61,469 bases of DNA from Syntrophomonadaceae bacterium. GTDB taxonomy: Bacteria > Bacillota > Dethiobacteria > DTU022. Positions 152-28,747 of this stretch are shown piece by piece; position 1 is the stretch's first letter; each line of letters opens with the position of its first letter. A model generated the notes under the pieces. It ran no database searches. It was not told the origin of the DNA and saw only the letters and a program-made list of their open reading frames with translations. The position numbers and the translations under genes are program-made. The stretch covers positions 1 through 61,469 of the forward strand of contig PWYU01000089.1 of NCBI GenBank assembly GCA_003567725.1, written 5' to 3'.

Positions 152-1231
152 GTGAAATATTTTTTATCAACTCGTTGGGGTATTGTTTCTGTCGGAGTTT
201 TTATTGGCATCCTGGCTTCAATGCTGCAGTTCTGGGGCAACCCGCCCAATATGGGCGTCTGTGTGGCCTGTTTTGAGCGCGATATCGCCGGCGCCCTCGG
301 TATGCACAGGGCCGCGGTGGTCCAGTACATGCGTCCGGAAATTATCGGCTTTGTCCTGGGCTCCTTTGGTGCCGCTTATTTATTTAAAGAGTTTAGATCG
401 AGGCTCGGTTCTGCTCCCATCGTCAGGTTTGTGCTTGGCGTTTTTGCCATGATTGGAGCTCTCATTTTTCTGGGTTGCCCCTGGCGGGCTTTGCTCCGCC
501 TGGCCGGTGGGGACGGTAATGCTATTTTAGGGTTACTGGGCCTGGCCGCCGGAATCTGGATCGGGACCTTGTTTTTAAAAAGTGGCTACAACCTGGGTCG
601 CGCCAATAAGACCCACGCTTCAGCCGGGTGGATTATGCCTCTAATCATGCTCGGGTTTCTGGCCCTCATGCTTATAGATCCTCCCGTCAATGGAGAAATT
701 CAAAGCAATTTTCTATTCTACAGCCAGGAAGGTCCCGGGTCCATGTATGCTCCCCTGATCGTTTCCCTGGTGGTCGGCCTGGGAATAGGCTTCCTGGCAC
801 AAAAGAGCCGTTTTTGCACCATGGGGGCCATAAGAGACCTGATATTGTTCAAACAGACCCATCTTTTCGGGGGTCTGGTGGCCCTGGCTGTGGCCGCATT
901 TATCACGAACCTGGTCGTCGGCCAGTTCAACCCCGGTTTTGTCGACCAGCCTGTCGCCCATAACCTCCATGTGTGGAATTTTGCCGGTATGGGGCTTGCA
1001 GGTCTTGCTTTTGCTCTCGGTGGTGGATGTCCCGGTCGTCAGCTTTTCCTGGCCGGAGAGGGCGATGGAGATGCTTCTATCTTCGTTATCGGCATGATAA
1101 TAGGCGCTGCTTTTGCCCACAATTTCGGACTGGCCAGTTCACCGGCCGGAGTTACCCCAGCCGGTATCGGGGCTCTCTTTATTGGGCTGGTAGTTTGCCT
1201 TCTGATAGGTTTTACCATGAGAGGAAAGTAA
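152..1231 (+). CDS. yedE: YedE/YeeE-family membrane transporter (selenium or sulfur compound)
   Basis: This is a polytopic inner-membrane protein of 359 residues with about ten hydrophobic segments and small-residue-rich repeats typical of the YeeE/YedE family. Conserved Cys-containing motifs are visible near residues 29-33 (GVCVACF), near 109 (GCPWR) and late in the protein (GGGCPGRQ). Known relatives are the putative selenium transporter YedE and the thiosulfate importer TsuA. The start is GTG at 152 after AGGTGGTGG. A TusA-like sulfur carrier follows 30 bases later, and this pairing is typical of the family; the two are probably co-transcribed. The substrate cannot be decided from sequence. 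Confidence 0.85.
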   Translation: MKYFLSTRWGIVSVGVFIGILASMLQFWGNPPNMGVCVACFERDIAGALGMHRAAVVQYMRPEIIGFVLGSFGAAYLFKEFRSRLGSAPIVRFVLGVFAMIGALIFLGCPWRALLRLAGGDGNAILGLLGLAAGIWIGTLFLKSGYNLGRANKTHASAGWIMPLIMLGFLALMLIDPPVNGEIQSNFLFYSQEGPGSMYAPLIVSLVVGLGIGFLAQKSRFCTMGAIRDLILFKQTHLFGGLVALAVAAFITNLVVGQFNPGFVDQPVAHNLHVWNFAGMGLAGLAFALGGGCPGRQLFLAGEGDGDASIFVIGMIIGAAFAHNFGLASSPAGVTPAGIGALFIGLVVCLLIGFTMRGK

Positions 1232-1261
1232 GAATAAGCTTTTAAGGAGGAATGATGGAAG

Positions 1262-1477
1262 ATGGAAAATCAAGTTGATGCCAGGGGCTTTTCGTGCCCT
1301 CAGCCGGTAATTATGGCGGTCAATGAAATGAAAAAGGTAGGACAGGGTCAAATAACTGTTTTGGTTGATACCGATACGGCGAAAGAAAACGTAAGCCGCG
1401 CTACGAGTGCCCAGGGCTGGTCGGTGCTTGATATTCAGCCCGATGAAGGGGGCTATAAAATCAAAATAGGAAAGTGA
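1262..1477 (+). CDS. TusA/SirA-like sulfur carrier protein
   Basis: A 71-residue protein with the family's CPxP motif at residues 12-15; Cys12 is the expected persulfide-carrying residue. TusA-fold proteins relay sulfur or selenium between enzymes in the cytoplasm. It lies directly downstream of the YedE-type transporter and is preceded by a good Shine-Dalgarno site (AAGGAGGAATG at about 1243-1253), so the pair is likely one operon that imports and hands over a reduced sulfur or selenium species. The full TusA domain is present and there is no YedF-type extension, so it could serve either element. Confidence 0.88.
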   Translation: MENQVDARGFSCPQPVIMAVNEMKKVGQGQITVLVDTDTAKENVSRATSAQGWSVLDIQPDEGGYKIKIGK

Positions 1478-1979
1478 ATAGTTGATAGATTAAAGCTTTC
1501 AAAAAACCCACGCAAAACGAGCCTGTTAAATGTCAAAAAGCATTTATTGTTGCCCGGCATAACTTTAATACCTAGTTTTTCCGACCTGGTTTTGCCGACC
1601 ATTAAAGTCTTGACATTGAAGGGTGTTTGATTTAGATTTAGTGATACAAAAATAAGTATCGTGGTACAATGTACTTTCCCGGACTTCAGGAAGAATGTTC
1701 AACGTCCTGTCTACCCTTTTAAACCGGTTGCTAAATCATTTTGTGTATGCAGGTTTAAATTCTGCTGAATGCTTAGGAAAATCAATGGTTTTGGAATTAG
1801 CGGGCCACTCCAAAACTTTTATAAAAAATAATCCAGGGCAGCTTAAGCTGCCCTGGATTTCAGTTCACTTTTTGGGTTTTGACGGCTGAATCAGCTTGTA
1901 AGCTGTATAATTCTCTGATTAGTAAACCGGCTAATGTAGTTTTTTAGCATCCATTATCAAGGGTCATCTAGCTTAAGGA
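1478..1979. other. Intergenic region between convergent genes
   Basis: About 500 bases lie between the TusA-like gene and the end of the leftward MORN lipoprotein gene. Apart from the palindromic terminator near 1821-1858, I see no convincing gene. A 64-codon open frame at 1695-1889 runs straight through that palindrome and has no family resemblance, so I do not call it. Confidence 0.5.
1821..1858 (-). terminator. Rho-independent terminator for the MORN lipoprotein gene
   Basis: Bases 1831-1858 form a perfect 28-base palindrome centred on CTTAAG. On the minus strand it is followed by a T-rich run (TTATTTTTTAT, bases 1821-1831), the layout of an intrinsic terminator. It sits about 120 bases past the stop of the leftward lipoprotein gene. 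On the plus strand there is no clear T tract, so it probably acts in one direction. Confidence 0.7.
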
Positions 1980-2639
1980 TTAATCCAGCTGAAACGAGGC
2001 TCCACTTGGGCTGCTGCTTTCTTGTTCCCACCACCGCGATTCTGCCGCATCTTCATCTTCTGCCGGCCCGTCCTGAATCTGACCTTGAGAAAAGTATACT
2101 GTTTCAGTAGTGTCATCAGGATCAGTTTTTGTGAATTGACCATCTGGGTTTCCTTTAACCCAGTTTCCGCTAAGTTTTCCACCATCGGGATGTTCAAAAG
2201 TTCCCTCGCCATGAGGATTACCTTCAAGCCATGAGCCAGTATATTTCCCACGCTGCCATTCTTTATTGCTAACCTGAGTAATTTCAGGTTCTTGGGCTTG
2301 ATCTTCAGCTTCCACATTATGTTCTTGCCCAGGTTGTTCTTGTCTTTGGGCTGCCTGTGTCGGTTCAGCGTCAGTTGTTTCTTCTGGGAGTTCTGGTTCT
2401 ACAACGTCCCTATCTTCATCATCTTCATCGTTTTCAGGATTTTTAGGCTTAAGCGGTCCCGCCGCTTCCCATTCGGTGCTCCTGTGTTCTAAAAGAAGCC
2501 ATTCAGGAAGCTTGCCTTCTTTAGCGGTTGTAAAGTCTTCCGGTTCTTCTTCCTGGCTGGATAGCATTCCACAGCCAATCAGTCCCGAAGAAATAACTAA
2601 TACTATCAGTGTTAAAAAGACAATTTTTAAATTAGGCAT
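1980..2639 (-). CDS. MORN-repeat lipoprotein
   Basis: A 219-residue protein with an N-terminal lipoprotein signal: hydrophobic residues 5-20, then the lipobox LIGC with Cys23 as the lipidated residue. Residues 30-115 are a low-complexity, strongly acidic Glu/Asp/Pro/Gln linker. Around residues 132-170 there are about two MORN-type repeats (YTGSWLEGNPHGEGTF and LSGNWVKGNPDGQF). It should be anchored on the outer face of the membrane. MORN repeats usually mediate protein or lipid contacts, and no enzymatic domain is visible. It is divergent from a zinc-ribbon membrane protein across 245 bases. Function unknown. Confidence 0.75.
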   Translation of the reverse strand: MPNLKIVFLTLIVLVISSGLIGCGMLSSQEEEPEDFTTAKEGKLPEWLLLEHRSTEWEAAGPLKPKNPENDEDDEDRDVVEPELPEETTDAEPTQAAQRQEQPGQEHNVEAEDQAQEPEITQVSNKEWQRGKYTGSWLEGNPHGEGTFEHPDGGKLSGNWVKGNPDGQFTKTDPDDTTETVYFSQGQIQDGPAEDEDAAESRWWEQESSSPSGASFQLD

Positions 2640-2884
2640 CAGGGTCCCTCCTCGTTAAAGCCTGCTCTTGTCTCAAAGCCTAATGCTTTAAAGTTATAAT
2701 CATTATGTGTGGGCATTATAACCGAAGATTAATATTAAATCAATAGCGGTGACTTTTAAAAAATTTTTGGATACTCTAATCTGGTCTGTTGTTGCTTCTT
2801 TGTGTTATAATATAATTCGCATTCCGGCATATATTACTGTGTCGGTTTATATAAGTATTGATTTGATTGGTGGGAGGTAAAATT

Positions 2885-24319: not shown

Positions 24320-25210
24320 ATGATAAGATCATTAATACTGAAAGCGCCTGCAAAGATAAATCTTGGCTTAACCGTTCTTGGCTGCCGGGAAGATGGGTTT
24401 CATGATCTACAGTCAGTGATGCAGCAGGTATCTCTCTTTGATACCCTGGTATTTGAGCCCGCTCCCGGGAAAGGGCTCCAATTTTTTTGCACTGATCTAA
24501 GCTTGTCAGGCCCGGGAAACCTGGTAAACAAAGCAGCTGCCCTGCTGGAAGAAGAAGCGGGCGGAACTTTACCCGGTGTAAAAATAACCCTATATAAAAA
24601 TATCCCTGTTGAGGCAGGTTTGGCCGGAGGGAGCGCTGATTGTGCAGCAGCTCTGGCCGGTTTAAACCGTTTTTGGCAGTTAAGCTACGATCAAAAAAGT
24701 TTACAAAAGTTGGGATTAATGCTGGGTTCTGATGTGCCTTTTTGCCTTCAGGGAGGCACTGCCCTGGCCAGCGGACGCGGCGAAAAGCTGGAAAAATTGC
24801 CTGCCCTGCCATTTTTTTGGGTTGTTCTGGCTTTGCCTGACGCTTTAAAATTATCAACTGCCGCTGTTTATCAAAGCTTTGATAAAACCAGAATGGGCGA
24901 GCCGGAAATTGCTGCACTGGTTGAAGCGATCAGGAAAGGCAGCAGGAGCAAAATCATATCATGGTTGTCCCGGGATTTAACCAATACCCTGGAAACGGCA
25001 GATCTCCCAGGCTCTGCTATTTTGAAAGAAACTAAATACAGGCTGCAAAGTAGAGGGTTGCAACCGGTATTATCAGGAAGCGGCCCGGCTTTATTTGTGT
25101 TGAGCTCTGAATATGAAATGGCCAGTAAAGCGGCCCGGATGATGGAAGAAGAAAACTGCCGGGCCTATTTATGCTGGATCTGCGGGAAAAAAGCTTGGCA
25201 GGAGGGATAA
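24320..25210 (+). CDS. ispE: 4-diphosphocytidyl-2-C-methyl-D-erythritol kinase
   Basis: A 296-residue GHMP-family kinase of the non-mevalonate isoprenoid route. It shows the N-terminal KAPAKINLGLTVLG, the ATP-binding PVEAGLAGGSADCAA and the C-terminal LSGSGPALFVL. It starts immediately after pncB. The ispE position after rsmA/veg is conserved, but here it is separated from veg by the NAD salvage pair. Confidence 0.95.
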   Translation: MIRSLILKAPAKINLGLTVLGCREDGFHDLQSVMQQVSLFDTLVFEPAPGKGLQFFCTDLSLSGPGNLVNKAAALLEEEAGGTLPGVKITLYKNIPVEAGLAGGSADCAAALAGLNRFWQLSYDQKSLQKLGLMLGSDVPFCLQGGTALASGRGEKLEKLPALPFFWVVLALPDALKLSTAAVYQSFDKTRMGEPEIAALVEAIRKGSRSKIISWLSRDLTNTLETADLPGSAILKETKYRLQSRGLQPVLSGSGPALFVLSSEYEMASKAARMMEEENCRAYLCWICGKKAWQEG

Positions 25211-25212
25211 CT

Positions 25213-25983
25213 GTGTTCGATGCTGTTGTTCTGGCTGGAGGGGGAAAGCGGGAACCGCTAACTGAACAGGAAAAAGTCGATAATAAAGCGTTTATCTTGA
25301 TTAACGGCCAGCCTTTGCTTAGCTTTGTTCTGAAAGCTCTTCAGGAAGCGCCTTCGATTCAAAACATAGTCGTTGTCGGGCCCGATCAAGATCTTTTAAA
25401 ACTCAGGAATCAAGAAAATGATTATGTAATCGTTCCTGAAAAAGGAAGTATGCTTAATAATATTGCTGCCGGCCTGGAAGAGGTTGATAAAAATCGCCTT
25501 TGCCTGGTTATAACCGGTGACATTCCCCTGATTAATGCTGATGTTGTTGAGGACTTTCTTATCCTTTGTGAACCGTATGATCATGATTTATATTACCCTA
25601 TTCTGTCAAAGGATAATTGTGACCGGCACTTTCCGGAGACAAAACGGACTTATGTGCGGTTGAAAAAAGGGCAGGTAACCGGCGGCAATCTAGGGCTTGT
25701 CAATCCACACTGGTTCCTTGAAAATAAAGCCAGGCTGGAATTATTCATTTCTTATCGAAAAAAGCCAGTTAAAATGCTGCGGATCCTACCTGCAGCTCTG
25801 GTTTTGAAGTATCCTTTTGGAATGCTTAGTGTCAATGATCTGGAATTATTTATCTCCCGGCTTTTAAACCTCAAAGCAAAAGCTGTTCACTGCAATAAGG
25901 TAGAAATTGGTATGGATGTAGATAAAACAAGTGATTTAGCAGTGGTAAAAAATTTTTTAGCTAATAAAAGAATGACCTGGTAA
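25213..25983 (+). CDS. Nucleotidyltransferase-family protein (MobA-like NTP transferase)
   Basis: A 256-residue protein with the NTP-transferase N-terminus DAVVLAGGGKR, a conserved Lys near KAFILINGQPLL and the metal-binding LVITGDIPL. The C-terminal part is unusual for MobA or IspD. GTG 25213 follows AGGAGGG and the ispE stop by two bases; an earlier ATG frame begins inside ispE. It sits where Bacillus has purR. The activated substrate is unknown. Confidence 0.78.
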   Translation: MFDAVVLAGGGKREPLTEQEKVDNKAFILINGQPLLSFVLKALQEAPSIQNIVVVGPDQDLLKLRNQENDYVIVPEKGSMLNNIAAGLEEVDKNRLCLVITGDIPLINADVVEDFLILCEPYDHDLYYPILSKDNCDRHFPETKRTYVRLKKGQVTGGNLGLVNPHWFLENKARLELFISYRKKPVKMLRILPAALVLKYPFGMLSVNDLELFISRLLNLKAKAVHCNKVEIGMDVDKTSDLAVVKNFLANKRMTW

Positions 25984-27587: not shown

Positions 27588-28586
27588 GTGGCAGAGTTGT
27601 GGGCTGTTATACTAGCTGCAGGCGAAGGGAAACGGATGCATTCCCGTTTGCCTAAAGTTCTTCATCCTTTGTGTGGTAGAAGAATGTTGGAATATATATT
27701 GAGAAGCACCGTTGAGCTGACCAGCCAGGTCCTGGTTGTAGTCGGCCATGGTGCTTCACAGGTTCAGGAGACTCTTGGCGATAAATGGTCCTATGTTCTT
27801 CAAGAACAGCAACTGGGAACGGGACATGCGGTCATGGAAGCTTTGCAGAAGCTTCCTGATAAAGGAATTTTGCTGGTGCTATGCGGAGATACTCCCTTGC
27901 TGGAAGCTTCCTATTTGAAAAAATTGATAAATTGTTATCATGAACATAAAGCTGCAGTTGCTACCGCTCAAGTTCCTGACCCCAGCGGTTATGGACGGGT
28001 AGTGCGGAATACTAACGGAAAGGTTATAAAGATAGTTGAAGATAAGGATGCTTCCGATCGAGAAAGAGAATTACGTGAAATAAACACCGGTACATACTGT
28101 TTTGATCTGGAGTTATTGCGCCACTACCTGCCCAGATTAAAAACTGATAACCTTCAGCATGAATATTATCTTCCTGATGTAATAACCATGATGCACCAGG
28201 ATGGTTACCCTGTCGGCGCCTGCTGTCTTGATGATTACAGGGTTGGCCTGGGAATTAATAATCGCGCTCAGCTTGCTGAAGCGATTGGCATTTTGCAGCA
28301 AAAGGTCAAGCTTGGATTGATGCAAAAGGGGGTTACCATAGAAAAACCGGATACAGTTTATGTAGATGTAGATGTTCAAGTCGGGATGGATACAGTATTA
28401 CGGCCGCACTGTGTCCTTGAAAAAGGGACTATAATCGGAAAGCAATGTATAATTGGCCCGGGGAGCTATCTTTCTCAAGCAATTGTTGGTGATGATAGCG
28501 TAATCAGTTATTCGGTTGTTGATAATTACAGGCTGGAAATAAATTCTGAAGTTGGCCCGTTTGCCCATTTAAAAGGTGAAGGGTAA
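27588..28586 (+). CDS. glmU: GlmU, uridylyltransferase part only (C-terminal acetyltransferase missing)
   Basis: A 332-residue protein; full-length GlmU has about 455. The N-terminal pyrophosphorylase is complete: LAAGEGKRMHSRLPKVLHP, QLGTGHAV, LCGDTPLL, EINTGTYCF. The left-handed beta-helix has only its first turns and stops at GPFAHLKGEG just where the family would continue with RPG and the acetyltransferase active site. The next 160 bases hold no remnant of the missing part in any frame. GTG 27588 follows a GGGGAGGGG site. It should make UDP-GlcNAc from GlcNAc-1-P but cannot acetylate GlcN-1-P. Confidence 0.9.
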   Translation: MAELWAVILAAGEGKRMHSRLPKVLHPLCGRRMLEYILRSTVELTSQVLVVVGHGASQVQETLGDKWSYVLQEQQLGTGHAVMEALQKLPDKGILLVLCGDTPLLEASYLKKLINCYHEHKAAVATAQVPDPSGYGRVVRNTNGKVIKIVEDKDASDRERELREINTGTYCFDLELLRHYLPRLKTDNLQHEYYLPDVITMMHQDGYPVGACCLDDYRVGLGINNRAQLAEAIGILQQKVKLGLMQKGVTIEKPDTVYVDVDVQVGMDTVLRPHCVLEKGTIIGKQCIIGPGSYLSQAIVGDDSVISYSVVDNYRLEINSEVGPFAHLKGEG

Positions 28587-28747
28587 TTATCAATGGGCTT
28601 AGTTTCAAGAGGTTTTTAAAAAATATTTTCGCCGACCCCTCCTTTTTTCCAAACATTGATCCTCCGGCAGGAAAACAAGGCAAAAAAGAGAAAGGGTATT
28701 TATAAAAACTTGCACTAAATCTGGATTAACTATGCTCAGGAGGGTTT

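Follow-up and report, generated by a model that had tools for sequence, protein, structure and literature searches.

A Short GlmU Ending after the First Beta-Helix Coils

The window analyzed here, a stretch of 61,469 nucleotides from the draft genome of an uncultured Syntrophomonadaceae bacterium (Bacillota), encodes a short glmU in the gene order spoVG, glmU, prs, rplY (ctc), pth, which is also that of Bacillus subtilis. The coordinates of this gene, its domains and its surroundings are given in table 1, together with those of two genes found on another contig (C75) of the same genome. A MobA/CofC-like nucleotidyltransferase gene also lies in the window, upstream of spoVG–glmU.

Table 1. Features of the short glmU region and of contig C75 in the same draft genome
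Feature	Sequence	Position	Strand	Details
MobA/CofC-like nucleotidyltransferase	window	25171-25983	+	270 aa; overlap with the end of ispE
Short glmU	window	27588..28586	+	332 aa; GTG start, TAA stop
Pyrophosphorylase (uridylyltransferase) domain	window	27603..28277	+	aa 6-230; motifs, PDB and profile matches
First left-handed beta-helix coils left	window	28326..28577	+	aa 247-330; Hexapep 262-295; end GPFAHLK
Intergenic stretch up to prs	window	28587..28747	+	without trace of acetyltransferase domain (tblastn)
Stand-alone left-handed beta-helix acetyltransferase	contig C75 (G000)	941-1771		276 aa; near start of 20.5-kb contig
Protein X	contig C75 (G000; locus L010)	1788-2687	+	~300 aa

The pyrophosphorylase half of the protein is intact: it retains the nucleotide-sugar motifs of bifunctional GlmU (LAAGEGKRM..LPKVLH, QLGTGHAV, GDTPLL, GYGRVV, IVEDKDA, EINTGTY, and GINN) and is 41% identical to Streptococcus pneumoniae GlmU (4–332). 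The NCBIfam models of bifunctional GlmU, 447–459 positions long, are covered only at positions 2–331, with scores of 381 and 363 bits that lie below the respective cut-offs of 450 and 366.85. For TIGR01173, whose curated cut-off is the latter (362.8 bits reached), the N-terminal UDP-GlcNAc pyrophosphorylase domain and its conserved motifs are present, and the C-terminal beta-helix acetyltransferase domain with its Glu/His/Tyr/Asn/Lys site is lacking, as the protein ends at about position 331 of 452. GlmU chains in the PDB are likewise matched only up to residues 329–333 (about residue 333 in Escherichia coli), and the remaining coils hold none of the acetyltransferase active-site residues. In contrast to the bifunctional enzymes of E. 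coli and S. pneumoniae (TIGR01173/NF010934), with which it has the pyrophosphorylase domain in common, the window GlmU is thus without residues ~334–455 and without the acetyltransferase site.

A search with eight intact GlmU C-termini (tblastn) gave no match to a remnant of this domain between 28551 and 28760, and its hits in the rest of the window did not rise above noise; neither a different reading frame nor the DNA farther downstream holds a trace of it. The natural end corresponds closely to an artificial one: the E. coli GlmU cut at 331 (PDB 1fwy/1fxj) has the same content as the window protein, and the alignment with 1fwy, 6–326 to 8–330, covers nearly the full length. The truncation in the window differs in that it is a natural one, has become fixed in a clade, and goes together with a separate acetyltransferase gene. 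An earlier note on this DNA had described a GlmU of 332 residues with an intact pyrophosphorylase domain, no acetyltransferase site, no beta-helix remnant behind the stop and an end close to the artificial cut, and the reading frame, profile, PDB and tblastn results agree with it on each of these; of the range it gave (27588–28747) the start holds, whereas the end, 28747, lies beyond the gene and immediately precedes the start codon of prs.

Distribution of the Short Form among Relatives

The draft of the window's genome is fragmented, with 127 contigs, a completeness of 95.9% and a contamination of 3.5%, and the earlier note had advised looking for the short form in relatives. Among 60 genomes, comprising the window's own and its relatives, 28 encode a short GlmU: 27 from the window's family and one further genome, G052. 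In the 27 short-GlmU genomes other than the window's, which come from other assemblies, the place where the protein stops varies by no more than a few residues (GPFA...), which rules out a misassembly behind the short glmU. No catalytic motif was found downstream of the short glmU by motif search in the family loci checked.

In a tree of the pyrophosphorylase part, 24 short sequences form one supported clade (SH-aLRT 95), and such fixation across 24 genomes of a well-supported group excludes both chance and misassembly. The sequences of G020, G012, G026/G034, and G052 branch outside this main clade, beside full-length relatives. Across the whole sample, 12 changes between short and full forms are placed on the best tree and at least five are forced by supported branches, counts that are reliable to an order of magnitude only, as the tree was built quickly and many of its forks are left open.

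A Stand-Alone Acetyltransferase with a GlmU-Type Active Site

A family-by-family search of the window's draft genome found no second full-length GlmU; the presence of one would have spoken against the earlier note. The genome did contain a candidate for the separate acetyltransferase that the note had suggested seeking elsewhere in the genome, a GlmU/ST0452-type protein on contig C75. The profiles nearest to this protein match it with their C-terminal halves: first the archaeal GlmU model TIGR03992 (148.9 bits, positions 248–393), next another archaeal model, NF041173, third TIGR03991 (alternative bacterial GlmU), and last GlmU (TIGR01173, 55.8 bits). It falls outside TIGR03992 proper: the score stands against a cut-off of 292.1 bits, only 146 C-terminal positions are covered, and there is no fused nucleotidylyltransferase domain. 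The nearest PDB sequences are those of ST0452 from Sulfolobus tokodaii (113.6 bits) and then GlmU, and the predicted fold of a relative (L093; 83% identical, pLDDT 91.8) superimposes on ST0452 with a Z score of 25.7 (2.2 Å over 210 residues) and on E. coli GlmU with a Z score of 18.7. The beta-helix domain is therefore nearest to the C-terminus of ST0452 (PDB 2ggo, 5z09, 5z0a; TIGR03992) in both sequence and fold; unlike ST0452, in which it is fused to a nucleotidylyltransferase, the acetyltransferase here is separate and has its own N-terminal region of ~85 residues.

When aligned with intact GlmUs, the protein carries Arg138, Glu154, Lys156, His168, Tyr171, Asn190, and Lys213 at GlmU-equivalent positions, and all seven are invariant among 56 homologues. 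Intact GlmUs and ST0452 both have matching positions in the alignment for E..K, H..Y, N, and K. In S. pneumoniae GlmU, Glu348 and His362 are key catalytic residues (PMC11947611); we take Glu154 and His168 as their equivalents, and counterparts of the Tyr, Asn, and Lys residues are present as well. The conservation of the His/Tyr stretch KAGHFAY is partly circular, since SKAGHFAY served as a search pattern for the 80 loci described below; ANLK and Lys213 lie outside any pattern. The lysines in the stretch DEKEVKV, which follows the Asn in ST0452, are unmatched in the stand-alone family, and only the later Lys213 aligns with the GlmU lysine.

Codistribution of the Stand-Alone Gene and Amputated GlmU

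Within the set of relatives, the stand-alone gene occurs in 24 of the 28 genomes with a short GlmU and in only 1 of the 24 with a full one (Fisher 1e-9). The sole exception among the latter is G057, where the 5' end of another glmU, besides the full one, lies at the edge of a contig. We also drew an even sample of the phylum, 139 genomes of at least 90% completeness including the window's own, in which GlmU is short in 6, not found in 3, and full in 130; here a stand-alone homologue is encoded by all nine genomes with a short or absent GlmU, which belong to six families, and by 3 of the 130 with a full GlmU (Fisher 5e-12). Both Fisher values ignore relatedness and are hence inflated, and within the relatives only two independent short/full pairs lie on supported branches. 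Coincidence is nevertheless unlikely, because the carriers are spread over families and the gene is directly linked to glmM.

Fifty genomes from many phyla, a few of them of the window's own family (G061 is the same genome as G023), were reached through the stand-alone gene itself. Their GlmU is amputated in 33, at lengths near 245, near 330, or near 350–390 residues; it is full-length with a dead site in 1, intact and full-length in 6 (G075, G078, G082, G083, G085, and G086), and not clearly found in 10. The dead-site protein (G091, L176) has lost the acetyltransferase Glu, His, and Tyr and, on the alignment, is a possible intermediate of domain decay. In another genome with a full GlmU (G197, L278), a glmM–acetyltransferase–nagB cluster has its acetyltransferase gene split by a frameshift, either a pseudogene or a sequencing error. 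Under a split pathway, the genomes with both forms (these six and G197) would be intermediates or reversals.

Four relatives combine a short GlmU with no stand-alone gene: G003 (96% complete), G005 (78%), G026 (86%), and G034 (94%). A TIGR03992 search of these genomes revealed no other ST0452-like acetyltransferase. Incompleteness can account for the absence in G005 and perhaps for that in G003. In G026 and G034, which represent one genus (g16; L053, L054), GlmM was also not detected and MurA is present; these possibly use a third route to GlcNAc-1-P or have a gap common to both drafts.

Pathway Genes and Gene Neighborhood

GlmM and GlmS are encoded next to each other on contig C38 of the window's genome, which also encodes MurA; the organism is therefore equipped to make GlcN-1-P and has a need for UDP-GlcNAc. 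The 80 loci of the stand-alone gene come from about a dozen phyla (by record titles), and in 33 of them glmM follows immediately downstream. In the window's genus the stand-alone gene is followed by a gene for a protein of about 300 residues, here called protein X, and then by nagB.

Protein X is present in 29 of the 80 loci and adjoins the acetyltransferase, glmM, or nagB in several phyla, with an invariant GSDLD motif. A profile search placed it in no curated family above cut-off, and a PDB profile search gave no usable match. In the structure modeled for it, a winged-helix-like N-terminal part precedes a nucleotidyltransferase core of the pol-beta type, with matches to kanamycin nucleotidyltransferase-type (Z 10.9) and MNT-type (Z ~9) structures; protein X might thus regulate the flux of amino sugars by nucleotidylylation. 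GlmS was not found in G020 (L276/L206), G012, G018, G021, G023, G028, G032, G034, and G035, several of which are drafts of more than 90% completeness. In G020 (L116), nagB lies inside the acetyltransferase–glmM cluster, and GlcN-6-P might there come from NagB working in reverse.

Discussion

Peptidoglycan cannot be made without UDP-GlcNAc, and the usual view of GlmU is that of a bifunctional bacterial enzyme and a drug target. In the window's organism, the synthesis of UDP-GlcNAc is very probably divided between two proteins, one that acetylates GlcN-1-P and a GlmU that is a uridylyltransferase only. GlmS and GlmM would supply GlcN-1-P, the stand-alone ST0452/GlmU-type enzyme would convert it with acetyl-CoA to GlcNAc-1-P, and the short GlmU would join this to UTP, giving UDP-GlcNAc and PPi, with MurA using the product. 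The acetyltransferase is presumably a trimer, in which His168 would act as the base and Arg138, Glu154, Lys156, Tyr171, Asn190, and Lys213 would occupy the GlmU-equivalent positions of the site; for each of the two proteins, the function to be expected is that of its counterpart within the bifunctional enzyme. It is the co-occurrence and the adjacency to glmM that tie the GlcN-1-P step to the stand-alone protein. The earlier note had left a choice between a separate enzyme for the acetylation of GlcN-1-P and another source of GlcNAc-1-P: the former is strongly supported by the C75 protein, its catalytic positions, the co-occurrence, and the position beside glmM, and the latter may hold for the four short-GlmU relatives without the gene.

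Acetylation could instead be bypassed, with GlcN-6-P acetylated by a GNA1-like enzyme or GlcNAc imported or salvaged, the resulting GlcNAc-1-P uridylylated by the short GlmU, and the stand-alone protein serving another role. The Rickettsia GlmU, which like that of the window naturally lacks the whole acetyltransferase domain and has been proposed to draw its GlcNAc-1-P from the host (PMC5615194), offers a precedent, and G026 and G034, with a short GlmU and MurA and neither acetyltransferase nor GlmM, would fit as well. In contrast to the host-dependent Rickettsia, however, the window's genome encodes GlmS, GlmM, and a candidate substitute acetyltransferase, and so makes GlcN-1-P; the stand-alone gene also tracks the loss of the GlmU domain and in many phyla has glmM as its immediate downstream neighbor, so that a bypass appears quite improbable.

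It is very improbable indeed that the substrate of the stand-alone protein is some other amino sugar, such as GalN-1-P or a surface-sugar intermediate, with GlcN-1-P handled by an unrecognized enzyme. Left-handed beta-helix acetyltransferases do act on many substrates, ST0452 takes more than one and is titled "Dual sugar-1-phosphate nucleotidylyltransferase" in the PDB, and some genomes have the stand-alone protein beside an intact GlmU; yet the gene is linked to glmM and nagB, its match with the loss of the GlmU domain is near perfect, and the GlmU-type active site is conserved. An artefact, either a glmU truncated in assembly or a stand-alone gene on a contaminant contig, might be suspected from the fragmentation and contamination of the draft and from the position of the gene near a contig start, but it can be dismissed almost entirely given the shared stop position in the other assemblies and the nearest relatives of the stand-alone gene (77–83% identity), which sit in genomes of the same genus.

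For the split pathway, the differing cut points of GlmU suggest that acquisition preceded repeated domain loss, and we infer this direction of events: the stand-alone enzyme would have been gained first, leaving the C-terminal domain of GlmU redundant and free to be lost repeatedly, at different points. A GlmU without the acetyltransferase domain, like that of the window, was noted in 2020 in a free-living organism, Chlorobaculum limnaeum (PMC7725333); there it was read as pathway loss, and the passage on it names no replacement acetyltransferase. The same survey counts ~10% of non-endosymbiont genomes as lacking the UDP-GlcNAc pathway and suggests that whole phyla have been losing it (PMC7725333). 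We found no description of a stand-alone replacement acetyltransferase or a split route in bacteria in the open-licence literature.

We incline, with some reserve, to the broader view that split GlmU represents a second, widespread bacterial route to UDP-GlcNAc, in which an archaeal-type stand-alone GlcN-1-P acetyltransferase, often in a glmM operon, displaced the C-terminal domain of GlmU in many independent events across about ten phyla. On this view, some or all of the free-living genomes called pathway-less in profile surveys would have the split route. Because the stand-alone gene goes along with amputated GlmUs, it provides a concrete alternative to the pathway loss proposed in PMC7725333. 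The split route would correct the pathway annotation of many uncultured lineages, and would show clearly how, in nature, a domain is lost again and again once its function has been replaced.
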